DNA from: Alkalispirochaeta americana
GTDB lineage: Bacteria > Spirochaetota > Spirochaetia > DSM-27196 > Alkalispirochaetaceae
Assembly (NCBI RefSeq): GCF_900156105.1
Contig: NZ_FTMS01000004.1
Location: forward strand, 62,001-126,000
Direction: 5' to 3'
DNA length: 64,000 nucleotides
Within the stretch, counting starts at the first letter, position 1, and every line of letters begins with the position of its first letter. The notes under the pieces are model-generated. The model was not told where the DNA came from. It searched no databases and worked only from the letters and a program-made list of their open reading frames with translations. Positions 2,236-10,755 of the stretch are shown in pieces. Position numbers and translations under genes: made by a program.

Positions 2236-3957
2236 ATGGAACCATTCAACAATCCTGCCTTTTTTTATCAACTCTTCCAGGGAATATCCGAGGCCGCCGC
2301 AGTTCTGGACGGCCAGGACAGGATCATAACGGTAAATCGCCGTTTCGAAAGCTTCTACGGATACCACCGCGACGCGATAACAGGACGCTACATAAACGAT
2401 CTCATCGTCCCCGATGCGCAGGCCCGGGAAGCTGAAGCCTATTCCCGAATCGTCCTCTCCGGAACCCCCCTCTCGGTGAACGCCATCCGGCGTCACGCCG
2501 ACGGCACCCCCCTGGAAGTTTCCATCTCGGCCCAACCCATCTTCCTGGAAGGGAAACAGGAGGCGCTCTTTGTCATGTACCGGGATATCACCGATCAGGT
2601 GATCCTCCTGGACAGCATAGATATCCACATCTGGTATCTTGCCCGTCCCGATACCTACGGGGCCGTCAACGATGCCCACGCACGCTTTCTGGGACGTTCC
2701 AAAGGGGAGATCCAGCACCAGCCCATCGAACAGCCCCTCTTTCGTGAAGGAAACCGGGAAGTCTTCTCTTCGGGCACGGAAACCACGGAAGAACGCTGGG
2801 CCGAGAGAGCCGATGGCGCCCGGCGGCTCCTGAAAATAACCAAGAAACCCCGGTTTGACCGGGAGGGACGCATAAAATACGTGGTGTGCACCGCCCGGGA
2901 CACCACCGAGGAACGGGACCAGGAAAACTCCCTGCGGCTTCTCTCGTCCATGGTAGAGCGAAGCGCCGACCCCATGGTCCGAACCGATGTGAACCACCGT
3001 ATCACCTACATGAACCCCGCTGCAGAAACTCACTTTGGCTGGACCACCCGGGAGGTAGCGGGAAAGAGCCCGGCCATCTTCAATGCCGAAGAACAGGCCG
3101 AGGCGATCCAGCAGGAAATTCTCGAGACGATCAAGTCGGGGCAGACCTACCAGGGGCGGCTGCGAAACCGCCGCAAGGACGGCAGCACCTTCATGGCCCA
3201 CATCAAGATCTCTCCCATCACCGATCGCCAGGGGGAGATCATCGGCTTCGTGGATATACAACGCGATATCTCGGCCGATCAGGAAGAGCTGGAGACCAGG
3301 GACCTCCTGCTCAAGGAGGTACAACACCGGGTCAAGAATAATCTGGCCACCGTGGTGAGCCTTCTTTCGCTCCAGGCAACACAGCAGGACGATTCCTCCG
3401 TCACCGGTGCCCTGGAAGACGCACGCCGCCGGATCGAGGCGGTTCTCACAGTCTACGAATCGCTCCACCAAAACCCGTCGACAGAGACGGTGCACCTTCC
3501 TTCCTATCTGGAACAGATTATCCAGAAGCTGAAGGAGTCTTTTGCTTCACCCCTGTCTTTCTGCTTCCGCTGGGACGAACAGGACGTGATCGTAGACAGC
3601 AGCACCGCTATCGCCCTGGGAATGATCGTGAACGAACTTCTGACAAACGCTGTGAAACACGCCTTTCCCCGGCAAAACCAGAACAACCACACCGGCGCCG
3701 TGGAGGTCTCCCTGGAAACACCCCCGCCCGGCACCAGGCATCTCCTGCGGGTAAGCAATAACGGAGACCCTCTGCCGGATCACCTGGAGCCAGGCGGCCC
3801 CGGTTGCGGCCTGGGCCTTACCCTGGTCCATAGCCTTGCGCAGAAAGTCCGGGGGGTTCTCTCGATCCACCGGGAGGAAGAGACCTCTTTCTCCGTGGCC
3901 TTTCCGGCCCAACCTCCCGGAACCTCTCAGGCCCCCCTTCGCCAGGGGCGATCGTAG
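2236..3957 (+). CDS. Cytosolic multi-PAS sensor histidine kinase (HisKA_2 type)
   Basis: 573 residues with no signal peptide or membrane segment, so probably a soluble sensor. There are three PAS-like segments (about residues 10-120, 125-235 and 235-350). They are followed by the HisKA_2 phosphoacceptor region LLKEVQHRVKNNLATVVSLL, with the probable phospho-His at 364, and a HATPase domain with N box NELLTNAVKHAF and a glycine-rich GCGLGLTLVHSLA. This kinase class often signals to stress or light responses, but the ligand cannot be read here. No response regulator is adjacent, so it is an orphan kinase. Its 3' end overlaps the convergent pyrC gene by 31 bases. Confidence 0.85.
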   Translation: MEPFNNPAFFYQLFQGISEAAAVLDGQDRIITVNRRFESFYGYHRDAITGRYINDLIVPDAQAREAEAYSRIVLSGTPLSVNAIRRHADGTPLEVSISAQPIFLEGKQEALFVMYRDITDQVILLDSIDIHIWYLARPDTYGAVNDAHARFLGRSKGEIQHQPIEQPLFREGNREVFSSGTETTEERWAERADGARRLLKITKKPRFDREGRIKYVVCTARDTTEERDQENSLRLLSSMVERSADPMVRTDVNHRITYMNPAAETHFGWTTREVAGKSPAIFNAEEQAEAIQQEILETIKSGQTYQGRLRNRRKDGSTFMAHIKISPITDRQGEIIGFVDIQRDISADQEELETRDLLLKEVQHRVKNNLATVVSLLSLQATQQDDSSVTGALEDARRRIEAVLTVYESLHQNPSTETVHLPSYLEQIIQKLKESFASPLSFCFRWDEQDVIVDSSTAIALGMIVNELLTNAVKHAFPRQNQNNHTGAVEVSLETPPPGTRHLLRVSNNGDPLPDHLEPGGPGCGLGLTLVHSLAQKVRGVLSIHREEETSFSVAFPAQPPGTSQAPLRQGRS

Positions 3958-5000
3958 GGGTCCAGAGGGTATTCCCGGGCAAGCTCCCGGTACTCATCCT
4001 CTCCAAAACAACCCTCCCGGGCCAGAGGGTTCGGGCGGAGCACATCCCGGGGCAGATCAAAGACCTCCCGGACCATGCCGCCCGTGATCGCCTCGAACCG
4101 CTCCGGTGACACCAGACCCCGCAGGAGCTCCTCGGCAACACGGCGAAACCCGGGAATCCCCGGAAGGCCCGCTGCTCCCCCGGCCTTGTCACGGGCCGTG
4201 TGAGGCGCATGGTCGCTTTCGAGCCAGGCCAGATCCCCCCGCACCAGAGACTGCACCAGCTCGCTCCGGGCCTTCTCGCTGCGCAGGGGAGGGTTCACAA
4301 TCTGCCGGTCCTCCCGGGTAAGCATCAGATGGTGCGGTGTGGCTGCCCCGGTGAGACGGAAGGGCAGCCCCCGTCCTTCGGACGCGATAATCCGGGCCGT
4401 TTCAGGAAGGGTCACGTGAGCAATATGAAGCGTTCCCCGAAAACCAGCTGCCTCGGCCAGGGCGATCTGGGTCTGCACCGAGGCGATCTCGGCTATGCCA
4501 GGCCGCGCGTCGGACCAGGTTTCAGGCTGATCCCGGCTGAACCGCTCTGGTTCAAGCAGATCTTCCCGTTCGGCATGAACCACCACTACCCCCCGATATC
4601 CTCCACGGGCCAGAGTTTTCCAGACCAGCCACTGCTCGGCCACGGTGATTACCCCCATCCGGCCCGTGCTGTGGCCCGCAAAGAGTTTCAGCCCCACCAT
4701 CCGGGGAAAAAGCTCATCCCGGGCCGCTGCAATATGCCGCACCTGGTCGGGGTCCGCCGTGATTCCACCGTAGATCCCGTGAAAGAGCCCCCCGCCCTCG
4801 GCGCTATCCAGCGATTCCAGGGCCCGATCGGCGTCGGCGATACGCCTCTGCACGGTCTCCCGGGTGGTCATGGCCGGGTTGGTGTTGGGCATCTCGAAGA
4901 CTGCCGACAGGCCTGCCCGCCAGGCTACACGAAATCCGTGAACCAGGGTCTCTTTCTGCGACTGCTCCCAGTCGCGAAGATGCACATGGGGGTCGATCAC
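3927..5000 (-). CDS. pyrC: Dihydroorotase
   Basis: 357 residues from the GTG at 5000, which overlaps the pyrDK stop (GTGA) and has AAGGAG 7 bases upstream; longer upstream extensions run through a tandem repeat and are not credible. The enzyme closes carbamoyl-aspartate to dihydroorotate, the third step of UMP synthesis. Amidohydrolase landmarks are visible: the metal-binding DPHVHLRDW at the N terminus, GLKLFAGHSTG (candidate carboxylated lysine), HAERED, HIAHVTLPET and ESDHAPHT. It is the last gene of the pyr operon and ends convergently inside the 3' end of the kinase gene. Confidence 0.93.
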   Translation of the reverse strand: MIDPHVHLRDWEQSQKETLVHGFRVAWRAGLSAVFEMPNTNPAMTTRETVQRRIADADRALESLDSAEGGGLFHGIYGGITADPDQVRHIAAARDELFPRMVGLKLFAGHSTGRMGVITVAEQWLVWKTLARGGYRGVVVVHAEREDLLEPERFSRDQPETWSDARPGIAEIASVQTQIALAEAAGFRGTLHIAHVTLPETARIIASEGRGLPFRLTGAATPHHLMLTREDRQIVNPPLRSEKARSELVQSLVRGDLAWLESDHAPHTARDKAGGAAGLPGIPGFRRVAEELLRGLVSPERFEAITGGMVREVFDLPRDVLRPNPLAREGCFGEDEYRELAREYPLDPYDRPWRRGA

Positions 5001-6697
5001 GGCGATGCTCCTTCCCGATATTCCCCGTATTGCCCGCATTCCCCGTATTCCCAGTATTGCCGGGCCGTTACAAAGGTACCGTACATACAGGTGAGCGCTC
5101 CCCCGCACTGACACGCCCCGCAGAGACCTACCCCGCAAAGCATGGTCTGCTCCAGCGACAGCCAGACCCTGTCGGGCGATATCCCTGCCCCCTCTGCCTC
5201 CCGGGCGGCCGCTTCCATAAAGGGCTCGGGTCCCACCACGTAGCAGGATAGCCCCTCCGCTCCACCCAGGGAGGACACCTCCCGCCCCACGTCCCGGAGC
5301 ACCCTGGCCTGCTCTCCCTCGTCCCGGACGATCCGCAGATCATCCTTGCCGGAAAGAATGGCCTGGAAGGTCTCGGACAAAGGTTTCTGCGTATCATCCC
5401 GGCGAAGCCCCACGAGGATTCGCAGAGGAACCTTCCGATCTGCCAGCTCCCGTGCCAGAGCAGGCAGCACAGCCGTGCCGCTGCCGGCACCTATCAGAAG
5501 CGCCGCCCGGGGAGTCTCCCGGGGAAGTCCCTCGCCGTAGGGACCGCGAAGATATACCGTATCTCCCGCCTCAACCTGCCCCAAAGCCCTCGAAAAAGGC
5601 CCCCGGCGATGCACCAGAAACCGCAACGGATCGGCATCGGCCGGCGAGAACGGCTTCTCTCCCACCCCGGGAAGCCACAGAAAACAGACCTGCCCGGCCC
5701 GATACGACAGGGACCCTTCCAGGGTTATCTCGCAGAGAGCATCGTCCAGATCCTTCCGGTGAGCCACCGTGAAGGGAGTAAAGGCCATCCCCGCTGCTTC
5801 TTTTCCGGGGGGAAGCTCCGCCCCCGGGACCCCTGCAAGGGACCGGAAAAGCTCCGGCCAGTCCCGCTGGTGATACCGGGCCAGAACACTGCCAACTCCC
5901 ACGGCAGTGGCCCCCAGGGACATCAGGGCACAGACGTCCTCATGAGTTTCCACCCCGCCCATACCGATAAGCGGGACCTCCGGCCCCAGGGCGCGACGGA
6001 TCTCGGCCACGCACTCCCGGGCACGCTCGCGAATCCAGCGGCCACTCTTTCCTCCCCGTCCTCCCAGAGGGTTCGAGAGGATCGACGCCCCCGAGTGGGG
6101 CTCGCGGTAGGCCTGGGGGTCTGCCGTATTAATCGCCACAATTCCCCGGGCGCCCCCCTCCACCGCCGCCCGGGCGATCCTGCCCGGATCGGGCGCATCG
6201 GGGGTCAGCTTGGCGTAGACGGGCACCGAACCCGCCTCGGCGCAGACCGCCGCCGTATATTCCCGCACCAGGGCCGGGTCGCTCCCGATAGCTGCACCGT
6301 AGCTCCCGCGTGCGTGGGGACAGGAGAAGTTCAGCTCCAGCATGTCTGCAAAAGGTGCCAACTCACGGGCCAGCAGGGCAAACTCTTCGGCAGAACCTCC
6401 CGCCAGGGATATATTGAGGCGACACCTGGCAGGCCAGCTTTTCCGGCGCGGTGCCAACTCCTGCAGTTCCCTCACCGTCTCGGCCAGCCCGGGGTTTCGG
6501 AGCCCCACGGCGTTGCCGAAGGATCCCGGCTCGGGCTCGGTCAGGATCGGCTCCCGGTTGCCCGGGTTGGGTTCCACCTGGATACTCTTGGTCGTGAGGA
6601 TCGACACGACGGTGTTCCGGGCAAACCAGTCGAGCATGGCGGGGTTCGTTGAGGCCACGCCGCTCACCGTGGCCAGAGGCACTTCCCGGGGACTCAC
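4997..6697 (-). CDS. pyrDK: PyrD-PyrK fusion: class 1B dihydroorotate dehydrogenase with fused electron-transfer domain
   Basis: 566 residues starting at a GTG that overlaps the pyrF stop. Residues 1-295 are a PyrD barrel: TTKS with Lys37 for FMN, NFSCPH with catalytic Cys126, and a C-terminal GMGGVETHED phosphate loop. Residues about 304-545 are a PyrK-type ferredoxin reductase: HRRGPFS for FAD, GAGSGTAVLP for NAD, and cysteines 521, 526, 529 and 537 placed as in the PyrK [2Fe-2S] site. In known class 1B enzymes PyrD and PyrK are separate chains forming a heterotetramer that passes electrons to NAD+. Here they form one polypeptide with no stop or frameshift between them. The last 20 residues are an unusual Tyr/Gly/Glu triplet repeat encoded by 9-base repeats. 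Confidence 0.9.
   Translation of the reverse strand: MSPREVPLATVSGVASTNPAMLDWFARNTVVSILTTKSIQVEPNPGNREPILTEPEPGSFGNAVGLRNPGLAETVRELQELAPRRKSWPARCRLNISLAGGSAEEFALLARELAPFADMLELNFSCPHARGSYGAAIGSDPALVREYTAAVCAEAGSVPVYAKLTPDAPDPGRIARAAVEGGARGIVAINTADPQAYREPHSGASILSNPLGGRGGKSGRWIRERARECVAEIRRALGPEVPLIGMGGVETHEDVCALMSLGATAVGVGSVLARYHQRDWPELFRSLAGVPGAELPPGKEAAGMAFTPFTVAHRKDLDDALCEITLEGSLSYRAGQVCFLWLPGVGEKPFSPADADPLRFLVHRRGPFSRALGQVEAGDTVYLRGPYGEGLPRETPRAALLIGAGSGTAVLPALARELADRKVPLRILVGLRRDDTQKPLSETFQAILSGKDDLRIVRDEGEQARVLRDVGREVSSLGGAEGLSCYVVGPEPFMEAAAREAEGAGISPDRVWLSLEQTMLCGVGLCGACQCGGALTCMYGTFVTARQYWEYGECGQYGEYREGASP
5011..5064. repeat. Six 9-base tandem repeats at the pyrDK 3' end
   Basis: Six consecutive 9-mers with consensus ATTCCCCGT (two exact copies; the others differ at one to four positions) lie just upstream of the pyrC start. 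In pyrDK they encode a three-residue repeat of the form (E/Q)-(Y/C)-G. The unit is a multiple of three, so copy-number change would keep the frame. Confidence 0.8.
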
Positions 6698-7620
6698 TGC
6701 AGGGCCTCGCCGTCCCGGAGCGCCAGGGCCTGGTGCATCGATCGATACGCTTCAGCCAGGGCATCCCGCCGTTCCCTTCGGCCCCGGGGCGCCTCGGCAG
6801 GAACCCAGGGAAAGAGTATTCCCCGCGATGCGTTCACCCGAACCAGCTCCAGAGGGTAACCGACAGAGCGAAGCACCTCCAGGGTCGCCTCGGCGGAGCC
6901 GCCCTGTTTTCCCACACCGGGAATCAGGAGTGGCACCGGAGCTGATGCCAGGTACGCCACAATCTCGCCCAACTCCTCCAGAGCCGTGGCACCAACAACA
7001 ATCCCCACACCAGGGAAGGTCCTGCTCCATTCCTGAACAACCCGGACCACCTCGCGGAACAGCGGGGTTTCTCCCCGGGAAGTTACAACCGGAAGGTTCT
7101 GGAACCGCGCCGCTCCGGGGTTGCTTGTCCGGGCCAGGGCGTAGACTCCCCGGCCCTCCATGAAAAAGGGGGTCACCGAATCGTCGCCCATCCAGGGCGA
7201 GACCGTCACCGCCTGGGCACCCCAGACCTGAAAGGCCTCACTGGCGTAGTTTTCGCTGGATCGGGCAATATCGCCGCGCTTGCTGTCCAGAATCACCGGA
7301 ATTCCCCGTTGCCGCTCCTGAAGAAGATCAAGAATCTTTGCCAGCGTGCGCGACCCCTGGTATTCCCCCTGACGGGGACGATCCAGGGCATGAAAATATC
7401 CCAAATTCGGCTTGTACGCTCCCGGCAGAAGCCCCGAGTGATCCACCACATCGAGGAAATCCTGTAGATGCTCCAGGATCACCTCTTCCGGCGATGGCCC
7501 TCCCAGCTGAGGTTCCTCCCGGCCGTAGCCAAGCCAGTCCATAACAGGGTCTATCCCCACACACAGAAGAGATCCAGCCCGCACCGCCGATTCCCGGAGG
7601 GTATCACGATAATTGTTCAT
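6694..7620 (-). CDS. pyrF: Orotidine 5'-phosphate decarboxylase (type 2)
   Basis: 308 residues from the ATG at 7620, which overlaps the pyrE stop (ATGA); an upstream start 12 codons earlier would lie inside pyrE. The enzyme decarboxylates OMP to UMP, the last step of the pathway. The catalytic motif DSKRGDIARS is clear, as are the N-terminal CVGIDP and the late PGVGKQGG phosphate-binding turn. The roughly 300-residue length and sequence layout fit the longer PyrF subfamily found in actinobacteria, myxobacteria and spirochaetes. Its stop overlaps the pyrDK GTG start. Confidence 0.93.
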   Translation of the reverse strand: MNNYRDTLRESAVRAGSLLCVGIDPVMDWLGYGREEPQLGGPSPEEVILEHLQDFLDVVDHSGLLPGAYKPNLGYFHALDRPRQGEYQGSRTLAKILDLLQERQRGIPVILDSKRGDIARSSENYASEAFQVWGAQAVTVSPWMGDDSVTPFFMEGRGVYALARTSNPGAARFQNLPVVTSRGETPLFREVVRVVQEWSRTFPGVGIVVGATALEELGEIVAYLASAPVPLLIPGVGKQGGSAEATLEVLRSVGYPLELVRVNASRGILFPWVPAEAPRGRRERRDALAEAYRSMHQALALRDGEALQ

Positions 7621-8324
7621 CGCCCTTCTCCCCACCCGAAAGGATCCTGTCGCCACCGGCGAATCGTCTCCATATCCTCCTGGCTCAAACCGCCCTGTTC
7701 AGCCGCAACGCCCAGAAGACACTCCAGATCAAAGATCGTCCAGAGCGGACAGGGCGTGGCGAGGCGCGAGAAAGCCCGGGGAGCCTCATCGAAACCGTAG
7801 GAAAAAATGGCTCCGCACCCCACAAGATCAGCCCCCGCCTCCAGGAGCGCCTCGGCCGCCGCCACAGCGCTCCCACCGGTGGAGATCAGATCTTCCACCA
7901 GAAGAATGCGGCGACCAGCCAGCGGCTTGGCAAGAAGCCCCTCTTCCCTGCTGAGACCCTCGATCTTTCGGGCCAGACCATGACCTTTCACGCTGGAACG
8001 AACGTAGTAAAAATCGGTACCCAAGGCCTCGGCCAGAACCGCCGCAGGAGCAATTCCGGCGCTGGCCGTCCCGGCCACACCCTGAATATCACCGGCCTCA
8101 CCCAGTCCGGAATGCCCGAGAAAACCAGCCCGCACCAGGGCCCGGCCCCGGGGGTACCGCATGAGCAACCGGTTGTCGTTGTAAATCGGCATGCGATACC
8201 CCGACGCCCAGGTGAAGGGATCCTCCGGGGAGAGCCGCACTGCCCCGATTTCCAGGGCAAAGGCAGCAGCCTCGCGCCCCACCGTTTCAGCATTTTGCTC
8301 CGGTTCACTGTGATCACATCTCAT
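7617..8324 (-). CDS. pyrE: Orotate phosphoribosyltransferase
   Basis: 235 residues. The PRPP-binding motif ILLVEDLISTGGS is intact, and the substrate loop is seen in YVRSSVKGHGLARKIEG. The enzyme adds ribose-5-phosphate from PRPP to orotate to make OMP, the substrate of the next gene's product. A GAGGGAG ribosome site precedes the ATG, and 42 bases separate it from pyrBI; the downstream junction to pyrF is a 4-base overlap. Confidence 0.93.
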   Translation of the reverse strand: MRCDHSEPEQNAETVGREAAAFALEIGAVRLSPEDPFTWASGYRMPIYNDNRLLMRYPRGRALVRAGFLGHSGLGEAGDIQGVAGTASAGIAPAAVLAEALGTDFYYVRSSVKGHGLARKIEGLSREEGLLAKPLAGRRILLVEDLISTGGSAVAAAEALLEAGADLVGCGAIFSYGFDEAPRAFSRLATPCPLWTIFDLECLLGVAAEQGGLSQEDMETIRRWRQDPFGWGEGR

Positions 8325-8366: not shown

Positions 8367-9956
8367 TCATTTCCATATTTCCTGAAAGCTGTGGGTTTTG
8401 CTGCAATAGGCGCAGGCATACCGGTCCGTGCCGGTACGCCGAAACCGGGGAATAATGTGCTCTCCATTGGCAGGATGGGTAATACACGCCTCGTTCCGGC
8501 AGACCAGTTCGGGCAGCTCCTCGATACGCGGGGGAAAGCCCAGGCGAATCTTCCGCTGTACCTCGCCCCGGTGAATCACGTTCACCGTAGCACCCGGAAT
8601 AACGGCGGCCAGTTTGCGAACCGTCGTCTCGTCAGGATCGGGATACCCCGGGCGGAAGAGGATTCCCTTGGTCCCACTCTGCTCTCCCGTGGAGACCCAC
8701 TCTCCTCCCGTGCCGTGAAGTTCCATCACCCGAATCAGCGTTGCCAGATGCTCCCTGATCGCCGGGGCCGAATCTCCGGCGCAGATGTGATCCAGCACCA
8801 GGCCATCCCGAATTGGACGGATACCCTCGGAGTAGCGCTTGGGGCCGGAACCTGCCAGAGGAAGCTCGGTAACGCAGTCCTCATCGTCCTGTGGAACAGA
8901 ACCCAGGGGTCCCTGGTAATCATCACCGATCTTTCCTCCCAGCATGGCCAAGAGAACGATTCGCACAATCCAGCCGTTGGAGGATTGCCGTTCCCAGCCG
9001 TTCCATTCGGTATCGTCCAGCGCCACAGGAATCGTGGGATGTTCCCGGTGCCTCGGCAGGGGGTGATAAAAGCGTGTCCCCCGAGGCAGTTTTACCGTAT
9101 CCGCCGGGTCAAAGGTGATCGCCGCCCGGAGTTCGCCCTGACGCCGCAGAATCCTGTCTCCCATTCTTTCCAGCTGGGGCCGCGTGAAATACCACTGGGG
9201 AGCCACTCCGCCGGGATCGCACCCCAGGGAGAGATACTCTTCAATTGACCGGTACTCGCGCACCTGGAAGCCCTGGCTGCGCATCTCCTCCACGTAATGC
9301 GCGGGCATGGAGAGTTCCCGGGGCGCAACCAGATCAACCTGGACCTTCTGAAAAAGCCCCAGACCGCGTACCTTGGAGTGAACCGTCCGACCGTGATAGA
9401 GGTCTCCCACCAGAGCAAGGTGGATTTTTTCGTGCGACCAATTCAGATCCTCAAGGAAGGTAAACTCGTCCAGCAACTCCTGGGTGGGATGCTCGTGACG
9501 GCCATCACCGGCGTTGATAAAGGAAACCGGCCAGGACAAGCCATGGCGTCGCCGGTATTCCTGCAATCGCTCCTCCAGATGCCTGCACACCCCCTCGAGT
9601 TTGGTGCGCACCACAAAAATACGGTTGCCGTAGCCCACCAGGTTTGAGAAAGTATCAACATAGCTCTCGGATTTGTTGAAAGACGAACTCTCGGCGTTAA
9701 ACTCGGAAAACTTCATGCGGTGAAAATGGGCTGCGTTCTTGAAGGACTCCCGGGTACGGGTGCTGTCCTCCAGAAAGACTTCATAAAACCCGAAGTCCGG
9801 ATCATTTATTCTGAAGCGGTCCAGTTCCGCTTTATTCCCCGTAGCCATTGCCTCTTTCAATCGCCGGGCTTGCCCGTAGAGGTAGAGCCGTTCCTGGTGG
9901 TTCAGGTCTTCAATAACAGCCAGGGTCCGCCCGAGAAAGGGTGCCTCTCTGCTCAT
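8367..9956 (-). CDS. pyrBI: PyrB-PyrI fusion: aspartate carbamoyltransferase with fused regulatory domain
   Basis: 529 residues. The first about 345 are the catalytic chain: the carbamoyl-phosphate loop STRTR at residues 65-69, then HEHPTQELLDEF and FYHPLPRHRE. The last about 165 are a PyrI-type regulatory chain ending in a four-cysteine zinc site (CRNEAC about 25 residues before CAYC). Fused PyrBI proteins are known from Thermotoga and some treponemes. Family knowledge predicts allosteric control by nucleotides. The start has a strong AGGGGGTGATC ribosome site, and its ATG overlaps the stop of the leader ORF (ATGA). No carAB genes are in the window. Confidence 0.94.
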   Translation of the reverse strand: MSREAPFLGRTLAVIEDLNHQERLYLYGQARRLKEAMATGNKAELDRFRINDPDFGFYEVFLEDSTRTRESFKNAAHFHRMKFSEFNAESSSFNKSESYVDTFSNLVGYGNRIFVVRTKLEGVCRHLEERLQEYRRRHGLSWPVSFINAGDGRHEHPTQELLDEFTFLEDLNWSHEKIHLALVGDLYHGRTVHSKVRGLGLFQKVQVDLVAPRELSMPAHYVEEMRSQGFQVREYRSIEEYLSLGCDPGGVAPQWYFTRPQLERMGDRILRRQGELRAAITFDPADTVKLPRGTRFYHPLPRHREHPTIPVALDDTEWNGWERQSSNGWIVRIVLLAMLGGKIGDDYQGPLGSVPQDDEDCVTELPLAGSGPKRYSEGIRPIRDGLVLDHICAGDSAPAIREHLATLIRVMELHGTGGEWVSTGEQSGTKGILFRPGYPDPDETTVRKLAAVIPGATVNVIHRGEVQRKIRLGFPPRIEELPELVCRNEACITHPANGEHIIPRFRRTGTDRYACAYCSKTHSFQEIWK

Positions 9957-10147
9957 TGATCACCCCCTCTGGCCAGCGCCGCCTTCGGCCAGACCCGAAA
10001 ACCCTCCGGGAAAAAGCGCAAAAAAAATGGCACCGGAAATTCCGGTGCCACCATTTCAATAGGAACAGCGAGGTCGCCTTTGGACCGCCGCCGTTCCGAA
10101 CAATACTCTGCATACCAACCCCGCCAGGGATTTTCAATCGTTGTCAT
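9953..10147 (-). CDS. Putative pyr leader peptide (PyrL-like), 64 residues
   Basis: A short ORF begins 11 bases after the predicted -10 box, runs through the terminator hairpin and ends on a TGA overlapping the pyrBI start. The terminator U-run is read as Phe codons in PVPFFLRFFP, reminiscent of the Phe-rich stretch of the enterobacterial pyrL leader. By analogy, a ribosome close behind RNA polymerase would block the hairpin when UTP is low. There is no clear ribosome site, which fits the leaderless starts seen elsewhere in the window. A second overlapping frame (ATG near 10113) is an alternative leader, so translation of this ORF is an inference. Confidence 0.45.
   Translation of the reverse strand: MTTIENPWRGWYAEYCSERRRSKGDLAVPIEMVAPEFPVPFFLRFFPEGFRVWPKAALARGGDQ
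10020..10050 (-). terminator. Intrinsic terminator/attenuator in the pyrBI leader
   Basis: A perfect 10-base-pair stem (TGGCACCGGA with TCCGGTGCCA, loop of 3) is followed on the minus strand by eight consecutive T residues. It lies between the pyr promoter and pyrBI, about 65 bases before the ATG, so it must be read through for operon expression. This is strong evidence for transcription attenuation; the sensing mechanism is inferred. Confidence 0.85.
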
Positions 10148-10158
10148 ATTGAGACCTG

Positions 10159-10187
10159 AGGCTACCCGGGCTTCATGGGGCTGTCAA
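10159..10187 (-). promoter_or_regulatory. Promoter of the pyr operon
   Basis: TTGACA (10182-10187), a 17-base spacer and TAGCCT (10159-10164). The -35 is perfect and the -10 keeps T1, A2 and T6. Predicted transcription start is near 10152. Confidence 0.6.
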
Positions 10188-10191
10188 GCCC

Positions 10192-10755
10192 TCACAATCC
10201 CTCGTTGCCCACCTCGGTCTCGTCTTCGGGATTCTGGGGCTTGTTACTGCTGACAAGTGCCGCCAGGGGATCATCCGTTGCCAGAATCTCCCGGATGCGG
10301 AAAAACCGCATATTTTCCCGATCCTGCTGTTCTTCAGGAGAAGCCCGCAGGTAATCCTGGTAGTTTTGCAACTCGCCGTAGAGGCGTGAGAACCGATCAT
10401 GCCAGGTAAGGGCTGCTTGCTGGTGGCGGGCCAGGTAATTCAGAAGTTCTGCCCGGTCCACCTCCTGGAGCCGCGCCTCGGCCTCCTGGGGCGTGTCATA
10501 GACTCCCACCAGCAGAGTGTGCCAGAGGGAGAACCAGACAAACTGGGGTTTTCGGTGATCGGATCCTGCGCAACCCGGACAGTACAACTCTTCCCGGATT
10601 ACACCGCTGAGAATGGGCGATCCCTGCACGAGATCCCCCACGTGATACTCCCGAAGCCCCGGCTCAAAAACCTTGGTCTGAACCTCGGTGATAGCGGTTT
10701 CGCAATTTGCGCATGCCCGGGGAGGGTCAAACCGCACGGTGTCAAAAATACCCAT
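10192..10755 (-). CDS. Uncharacterised zinc-ribbon protein
   Basis: 187 residues, not matched to a family I recognise. Two CxxC pairs (Cys15/Cys18 and Cys59/Cys62) suggest an N-terminal zinc ribbon; the middle (about residues 85-140) is rich in charged and aromatic residues and probably helical; the C-terminal 25 residues are acidic and likely disordered. There is no signal peptide or membrane segment. It sits alone between ugd and the pyr operon on the same strand and has its own promoter (TTGCGG, 17 bases, TACCAT) only 6 bases before the ATG, so it is probably leaderless. A nucleic-acid-binding role is possible but not shown. Confidence 0.6.
   Translation of the reverse strand: MGIFDTVRFDPPRACANCETAITEVQTKVFEPGLREYHVGDLVQGSPILSGVIREELYCPGCAGSDHRKPQFVWFSLWHTLLVGVYDTPQEAEARLQEVDRAELLNYLARHQQAALTWHDRFSRLYGELQNYQDYLRASPEEQQDRENMRFFRIREILATDDPLAALVSSNKPQNPEDETEVGNEGL

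Follow-up and report, generated by a model that had tools for sequence, protein, structure and literature searches.

How is the pyrimidine operon of the spirochaete Alkalispirochaeta americana controlled? A promoter, a short open reading frame (ORF), and an intrinsic terminator hairpin lie directly ahead of its first gene, pyrBI, and an earlier sequence-only reading of this DNA proposed attenuation of the pyrL type outside the enterobacteria. In the UTP-sensitive attenuation of Escherichia coli and Salmonella pyrL-pyrBI, worked out by Turnbough and co-workers (PMC10135430, PMC3641672), abundant UTP leads to fast polymerase, hairpin formation, and termination, and scarce UTP leads to pausing, ribosome catch-up, and read-through (PMC10135430). 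The DNA analyzed here (the window) is a stretch of 64,000 nucleotides. Its promoter, ORF, terminator, gene overlap, conservation, U enrichment, and lack of PyrR were all read from the sequence and from comparison with related genomes. The most likely reading is translation-coupled transcription attenuation in response to the supply of pyrimidine nucleotides, probably UTP; the leader would belong to the pyrL type by its anatomy, and its function is predicted.

The pyrBI operon and its leader

The operon has the order pyrBI-E-F-DK-C and lies on the minus strand. Its first gene (8367-9956) encodes a fused PyrB-PyrI aspartate carbamoyltransferase of 529 amino acids that is 88-89% identical to the PyrBI of Alkalispirochaeta alkalica (NZ_KB891712.1). 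The protein scores above cut-off for the catalytic model TIGR00670 and for the Pfam domains PyrI and PyrI_C; the match to the bifunctional PyrB/PyrI model PRK13376 of NCBIfam is strong (E=1.4e-208) yet stays below that model's curated cut-off. Domain matches identify the following genes as pyrE, for orotate phosphoribosyltransferase (7617-8324), pyrF, for OMP decarboxylase of subfamily 2 (6694-7656), and a gene for PyrD fused to a PyrK-like electron-transfer subunit (4997-6697), all on the minus strand. In the 566-residue PyrD-PyrK-like ORF, dihydroorotate dehydrogenase occupies residues 7-274 and the PyrK-like part residues ~324-559. The next gene (3927-5138, minus strand) is pyrC-like, with a TIGR00857 dihydroorotase match (window ~4110-5003) whose E-value of 1.5e-40 is below the model's cut-off. 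Directly upstream of the pyrBI promoter, on the same strand, a 187-residue protein with CxxC-type motifs is encoded at 10192-10755; it has no match in Pfam or NCBIfam, and it also precedes pyrBI in A. alkalica.

The promoter, called like those of all other leaders by consensus match, consists of a -35 element TTGACA (10182-10187, minus strand) and a weak -10 element TAGCCT (10159-10164, minus strand) separated by a 17-bp spacer. The start region predicted from this spacing, CAGGTCTCAAT (10148-10158, minus strand), contains AATAT, and the transcript probably begins within a few nucleotides of the leader ATG, so that the leader would be near-leaderless. The leader ORF (9953-10147, minus strand) runs for 64 codons from its ATG (10147-10145) through the terminator to a TGA (9955-9953) that overlaps the pyrBI ATG (9956-9954) as ATGA. 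The Shine-Dalgarno-like sequence of pyrBI, AGAGGGGG (9963-9970, minus strand), thus lies within the leader ORF.

The terminator hairpin, TGGCACCGGA-ATT-TCCGGTGCCA (10028-10050, minus strand), has 10 perfect base pairs, a loop of ATT, and a computed folding energy of -18.1 kcal/mol; its arms are kept in relatives. It is followed by a tract of eight T residues (10020-10027, minus strand), and the U-tract begins 71 nt before the pyrBI ATG. The perfect stem with eight T residues between a TTGACA promoter and pyrBI (10050-10020) and the 64-codon ORF that crosses it to end on the pyrBI ATG (10147-9953), both described by the sequence-only reading, are confirmed; its account of the U-run as Phe codons holds for the first two, and the third codon of TTT TTT TTG encodes Leu. 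Terminators were called with a scoring specific to this analysis, against a background of 452 kb of related stretches. No other hairpin in the 64-kb window reaches a score of at least 18 with a T-rich tail, and among the 19 such hairpins in the 452 kb, the window hairpin included, it is the only one crossed by an ATG-initiated ORF that ends where a long downstream ORF begins.

Conservation of the leader in relatives and across the class

Close comparisons were made with a set of eight readable leaders (the f1-type set), seven from the family of the window (f1) and one from G029, a genome assigned to another part of the order. The G029 PyrBI shows 71% identity, and the G029 promoter is almost the same as that of another member, G005. 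All eight have TTGACA in the same place, a -10 element (TATCCT, TATCGT, TATAGT, TAGCGT, or TACGCT in the relatives), an ATG about 9-12 nt past the -10 element, a hairpin with arms GGCACCGG/CCGGTGCC or base-paired variants of these, a T-tract, and an ORF that stays open through both. This is the conservation of hairpin and ORF that the sequence-only reading had called for. The ORF stops end at +4, +4, +4, +1, +4, +4, +4, and +8 of the pyrBI ATG (exactly ATGA in 6/8), and the U-tract begins 34-71 nt before that ATG.

The ORF remains open in the face of extensive sequence change. The leaders vary from 122 to 203 nt and are unalignable, and the phase of the hairpin relative to the ORF takes all three values. 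Upstream of the hairpin, the leaders are no more alike than shuffled sequences; the one exception is the pair formed by the window and A. alkalica (81% identity), where codon positions 1, 2, and 3 differ about equally (alignment counted by eye). A conserved leader peptide was accordingly rejected. Across the eight leaders, the leader frame has no stop in 467 codons and the other two frames have 30 in 933 (Fisher p=4e-6; p=1.5e-5 without the closest relative, A. alkalica). Since the peptides are unrelated and the frame is nevertheless open, translation rather than the peptide appears to be conserved. When single leaders were shuffled with the frame relation fixed, the probability of an ORF open to the pyrBI start was 0.17-0.60, with a product of 10^-4.3; a single such ORF is not rare in GC-rich DNA, and the evidential weight therefore falls on the frame comparison and the class-wide test.

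The G029 locus (L012, G029:C77:28405-33018) belongs to family f7.g8, in which most other sampled members show pyrB and pyrI as separate matches. Its fused PyrBI resembles that of Alkalispirochaeta and stands behind the same promoter and leader. Either horizontal transfer or assembly contamination would account for its presence there.

The class-wide test drew on 395 Spirochaetia genomes and on the regions upstream of fused-PyrBI genes from many genera, 94 loci including the f1-type set, with the proviso that loci within one family are not independent. A terminator is present in 77/94 loci overall; among the 85 loci that are not f1-type, 69 have one no more than 100 nt from pyrBI. No terminator satisfied the analysis criteria in the remaining 17/94, one of them truncated, and the device is thus not universal. 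A short ORF was counted when it was promoter-proximal or Shine-Dalgarno-led and ended no more than 15 nt short of the hairpin, or farther downstream; such an ORF reaches the hairpin in 67/77 terminator-bearing loci, as against a mean of 6.1 and a maximum of 16 in shuffled leaders, and a stricter test that admitted only Shine-Dalgarno-led ORFs gave 41/69 loci against 5.8 +- 2.3 expected. The layout differs between families: in f16, the largest family sampled, the ORF is mostly Shine-Dalgarno-led and stops inside or beside the hairpin, whereas in f1 and f33 it crosses the terminator and ends on pyrBI. Two f33 loci (L040 and L041) carry an ORF through the terminator with ATGA on pyrBI, in a family other than f1. 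In f30, f33, and f34 the leader ATG again lies almost at the predicted RNA 5' end; near-leaderless status is less certain in f16, where the same ORFs often have an internal Shine-Dalgarno-led start.

These comparisons bear on two explanations in which the leader is no attenuator. The hairpin might simply terminate the upstream gene (10755-10192), with a pyrBI promoter further downstream and an ORF that is an accident of GC-rich sequence. That gene does end at 10192, on the same strand and just before the promoter, and an ORF of this kind stays open through the hairpin in about one-third of shuffles. However, the upstream genes differ where they are readable (the window, G005, and G003), while the promoter, ORF, and hairpin stay with pyrBI, to which the device therefore belongs; the promoter precedes the hairpin in 8/8 leaders, the leader frame alone is free of stops, and leader ORFs are in excess throughout the class. 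This explanation retains a slim chance. By appearance of sequence only, the upstream gene is SGNH-type hydrolase-like in G005 and ArsR-type regulator-like in G003. The ORF might instead encode a conserved small protein, or serve only for translational re-start at pyrBI through ATGA, with the hairpin incidental. The overlap of stop and start in the f1-type leaders, in f33, and in one f16 leader fits re-start, but most other families have an ORF that already stops at or close to the hairpin, well short of pyrBI, and it is the terminator and U-tract that are conserved rather than any peptide; the probability of this reading is close to negligible.

The probable signal

A sensor of UTP would need U residues where a slowed polymerase can matter, and the leaders are enriched in them at that position. 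In the f1-type set, the T fraction is 0.37 in the last quarter before the hairpin and 0.17 before it, a difference present in 8/8 leaders (p=0.004); in the 69 non-f1-type leaders the values are 0.42 and 0.25 (p=6e-12). Hairpin loops are also T-rich (0.87 in f1-type leaders versus 0.30 in other terminators of the same genomes), and 5/8 f1-type leaders have a U5 loop. A polymerase short of UTP would thus slow before the 3' arm is made, at a point where a ribosome can act, and the enrichment supports UTP as the candidate signal. In the window itself the enrichment is modest (T fraction 0.32 in the last quarter versus 0.21 in the rest, with a longest pre-hairpin T-run of 2), so that UTP-specific sensing rests mainly on the relatives. 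This modest enrichment and the weak -10 element count against the attenuator reading, as do the 17/94 loci that lack a terminator and the dependence among loci of one family.

Two further explanations accept a regulatory leader and change its signal. If the attenuator is translation-coupled, the ribosome could stall in response to an amino acid (e.g., arginine, which shares carbamoyl phosphate) or to general translation capacity. The leaders do read open, some are rich in Arg and Lys, and Arg enrichment reaches z=2.9 in the non-f1-type set; but it is only z=1.0 in the f1-type leaders, no amino acid is consistently enriched across leaders, the peptides are not conserved, and a UTP sensor would need the U enrichment that is seen before and within the hairpin. 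A sensor of the trp or his type was rejected, since there is no shared codon run and no antiterminator fold that a stalled ribosome could favor. An amino-acid or translational signal is accordingly improbable, if not extremely so. The chance is very slim that the leader is instead a protein- or ligand-dependent RNA switch, either PyrR-like or a riboswitch. Its terminator before a pyr operon is the layout of PyrR control, and the fold of the whole window leader is somewhat more stable than those of shuffles (z=-2.4); the strong terminator hairpin may be enough to account for this value. Against such a switch, PyrR (NF003549) has no match in the window's genome (95.6% complete), in agreement with the search that the sequence-only reading had suggested, and none above cut-off among the genomes of its family. 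Rfam gives no plausible match near the window site, the PyrR site included, and none at gathering thresholds in relatives. The leaders, unalignable as they are, show no fold that competes with the terminator hairpin: a pause hairpin before the terminator is visible in the window but was rejected as a conserved element (mean z 0.04 for pre-hairpin folding over eight leaders), and antiterminator pairing to the hairpin 5' arm was rejected likewise (mean z 0.36). The earlier failure to recognize a PyrR-like antiterminator structure is thus borne out, with no alternative fold and no Rfam match at curated thresholds.

Proposed attenuation and start-site slippage compared with known systems

In the preferred reading, UTP-sensitive attenuation, the start site, translation of the ORF, polymerase pausing, and read-through at low UTP are predicted steps. 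Polymerase would start just upstream of the leader ATG, and a ribosome could load almost at once. With plentiful UTP, polymerase would stay ahead of the ribosome, the hairpin would form, and transcription would stop at the T8 tract. With scarce UTP, polymerase would slow where U residues are concentrated upstream of the hairpin and, for most relatives, in the U5 loop as well; the ribosome could then catch up and cover the hairpin 5' arm, and transcription would continue into pyrBI-E-F-DK-C. A ribosome that finishes on the pyrBI start at ATGA could also couple the two translations.

The likeness to E. coli pyrL-pyrBI extends to the promoter, the short ORF, the U-rich stretch, the GC hairpin with T8 inside the ORF, and the pyrB start right behind the ORF stop, as well as to the target, aspartate carbamoyltransferase, and the absence of a repressor. 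The differences are several. In contrast to E. coli, the spirochaete, of a different phylum, has a PyrB-PyrI fusion with pyrE-F-DK-C behind it in a larger operon; most relatives have a U5 hairpin loop, and the U-tract of the window itself is weaker. In E. coli, 3 nt separate the end of pyrL from pyrB, whereas the window leader stop overlaps the pyrBI start, and pyrL has the Shine-Dalgarno sequence GGGAGG, whereas the window leader ATG has none and lies almost at the predicted RNA 5' end. Bacillus-type PyrR attenuation also places an intrinsic terminator before a pyr operon; unlike that system, the spirochaete leaders yielded no PyrR, PyrR site, antiterminator, or anti-antiterminator.

The conserved leaders and the class-wide layout support the earlier proposal of pyrL-type attenuation outside the enterobacteria and suggest that coupling between ribosome and polymerase controls the pyrimidine pathway in spirochaetes too. 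If so, UTP-sensing attenuation is not confined to enterobacteria but also spans an entire class in a second phylum, and a near-leaderless leader ORF would be an unusual route for timely ribosome loading. Bacillus is reported to have uncoupled transcription and translation. Whether ribosomes outside the Proteobacteria follow polymerase closely enough to control termination becomes a testable question. No description of attenuation at spirochaete pyrBI was found in the openly available papers searched; the main review of pyrimidine control lay outside this coverage.

The first known examples of a second UTP-dependent device, reiterative initiation, were pyrBI, codBA, and upp, and it also operates at carAB P1 (GUUUGC); a run of three T residues and an A start favor it (PMC6245113). 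Four f1-type relatives (L013, L015, L016, and L017) have AATTT directly before the leader ATG, 6-7 nt past the -10 element: TATCCT, TATCGT, or TATAGT is followed by CCCGCC, CCCGTC, or CTCGTC and then by AATTT. The order resembles TATAAT-GCCGGAC-AATTTG of E. coli pyrBI, where the spacing to the first A is 7 nt as compared with about 6 nt in the relatives. At the start region the window and its closest relative both read AATAT, not AATTT. Judged by a run of three T residues immediately following an A start 7-8 nt from the -10 element, slippage in the window itself was rejected for want of a T-run.

A wider proposal joins these elements: a class-wide, peptide-independent UTP sensor at pyrBI in the Spirochaetia that needs close coupling of transcription and translation, near-leaderless loading at the RNA 5' end in several families, and AATTT slippage on the same promoter in part of the Alkalispirochaeta family. 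That all of this holds jointly is a tentative idea, somewhat more doubtful than probable. If true, an unrelated phylum combines the two devices by which E. coli pyrBI senses UTP, through convergence or deep ancestry. Elsewhere in the window's genome, upstream of carA (L120, G000:C5), where no terminator was seen by eye, GCAATTT follows a TATTGT hexamer and is possibly another slippage-type start.
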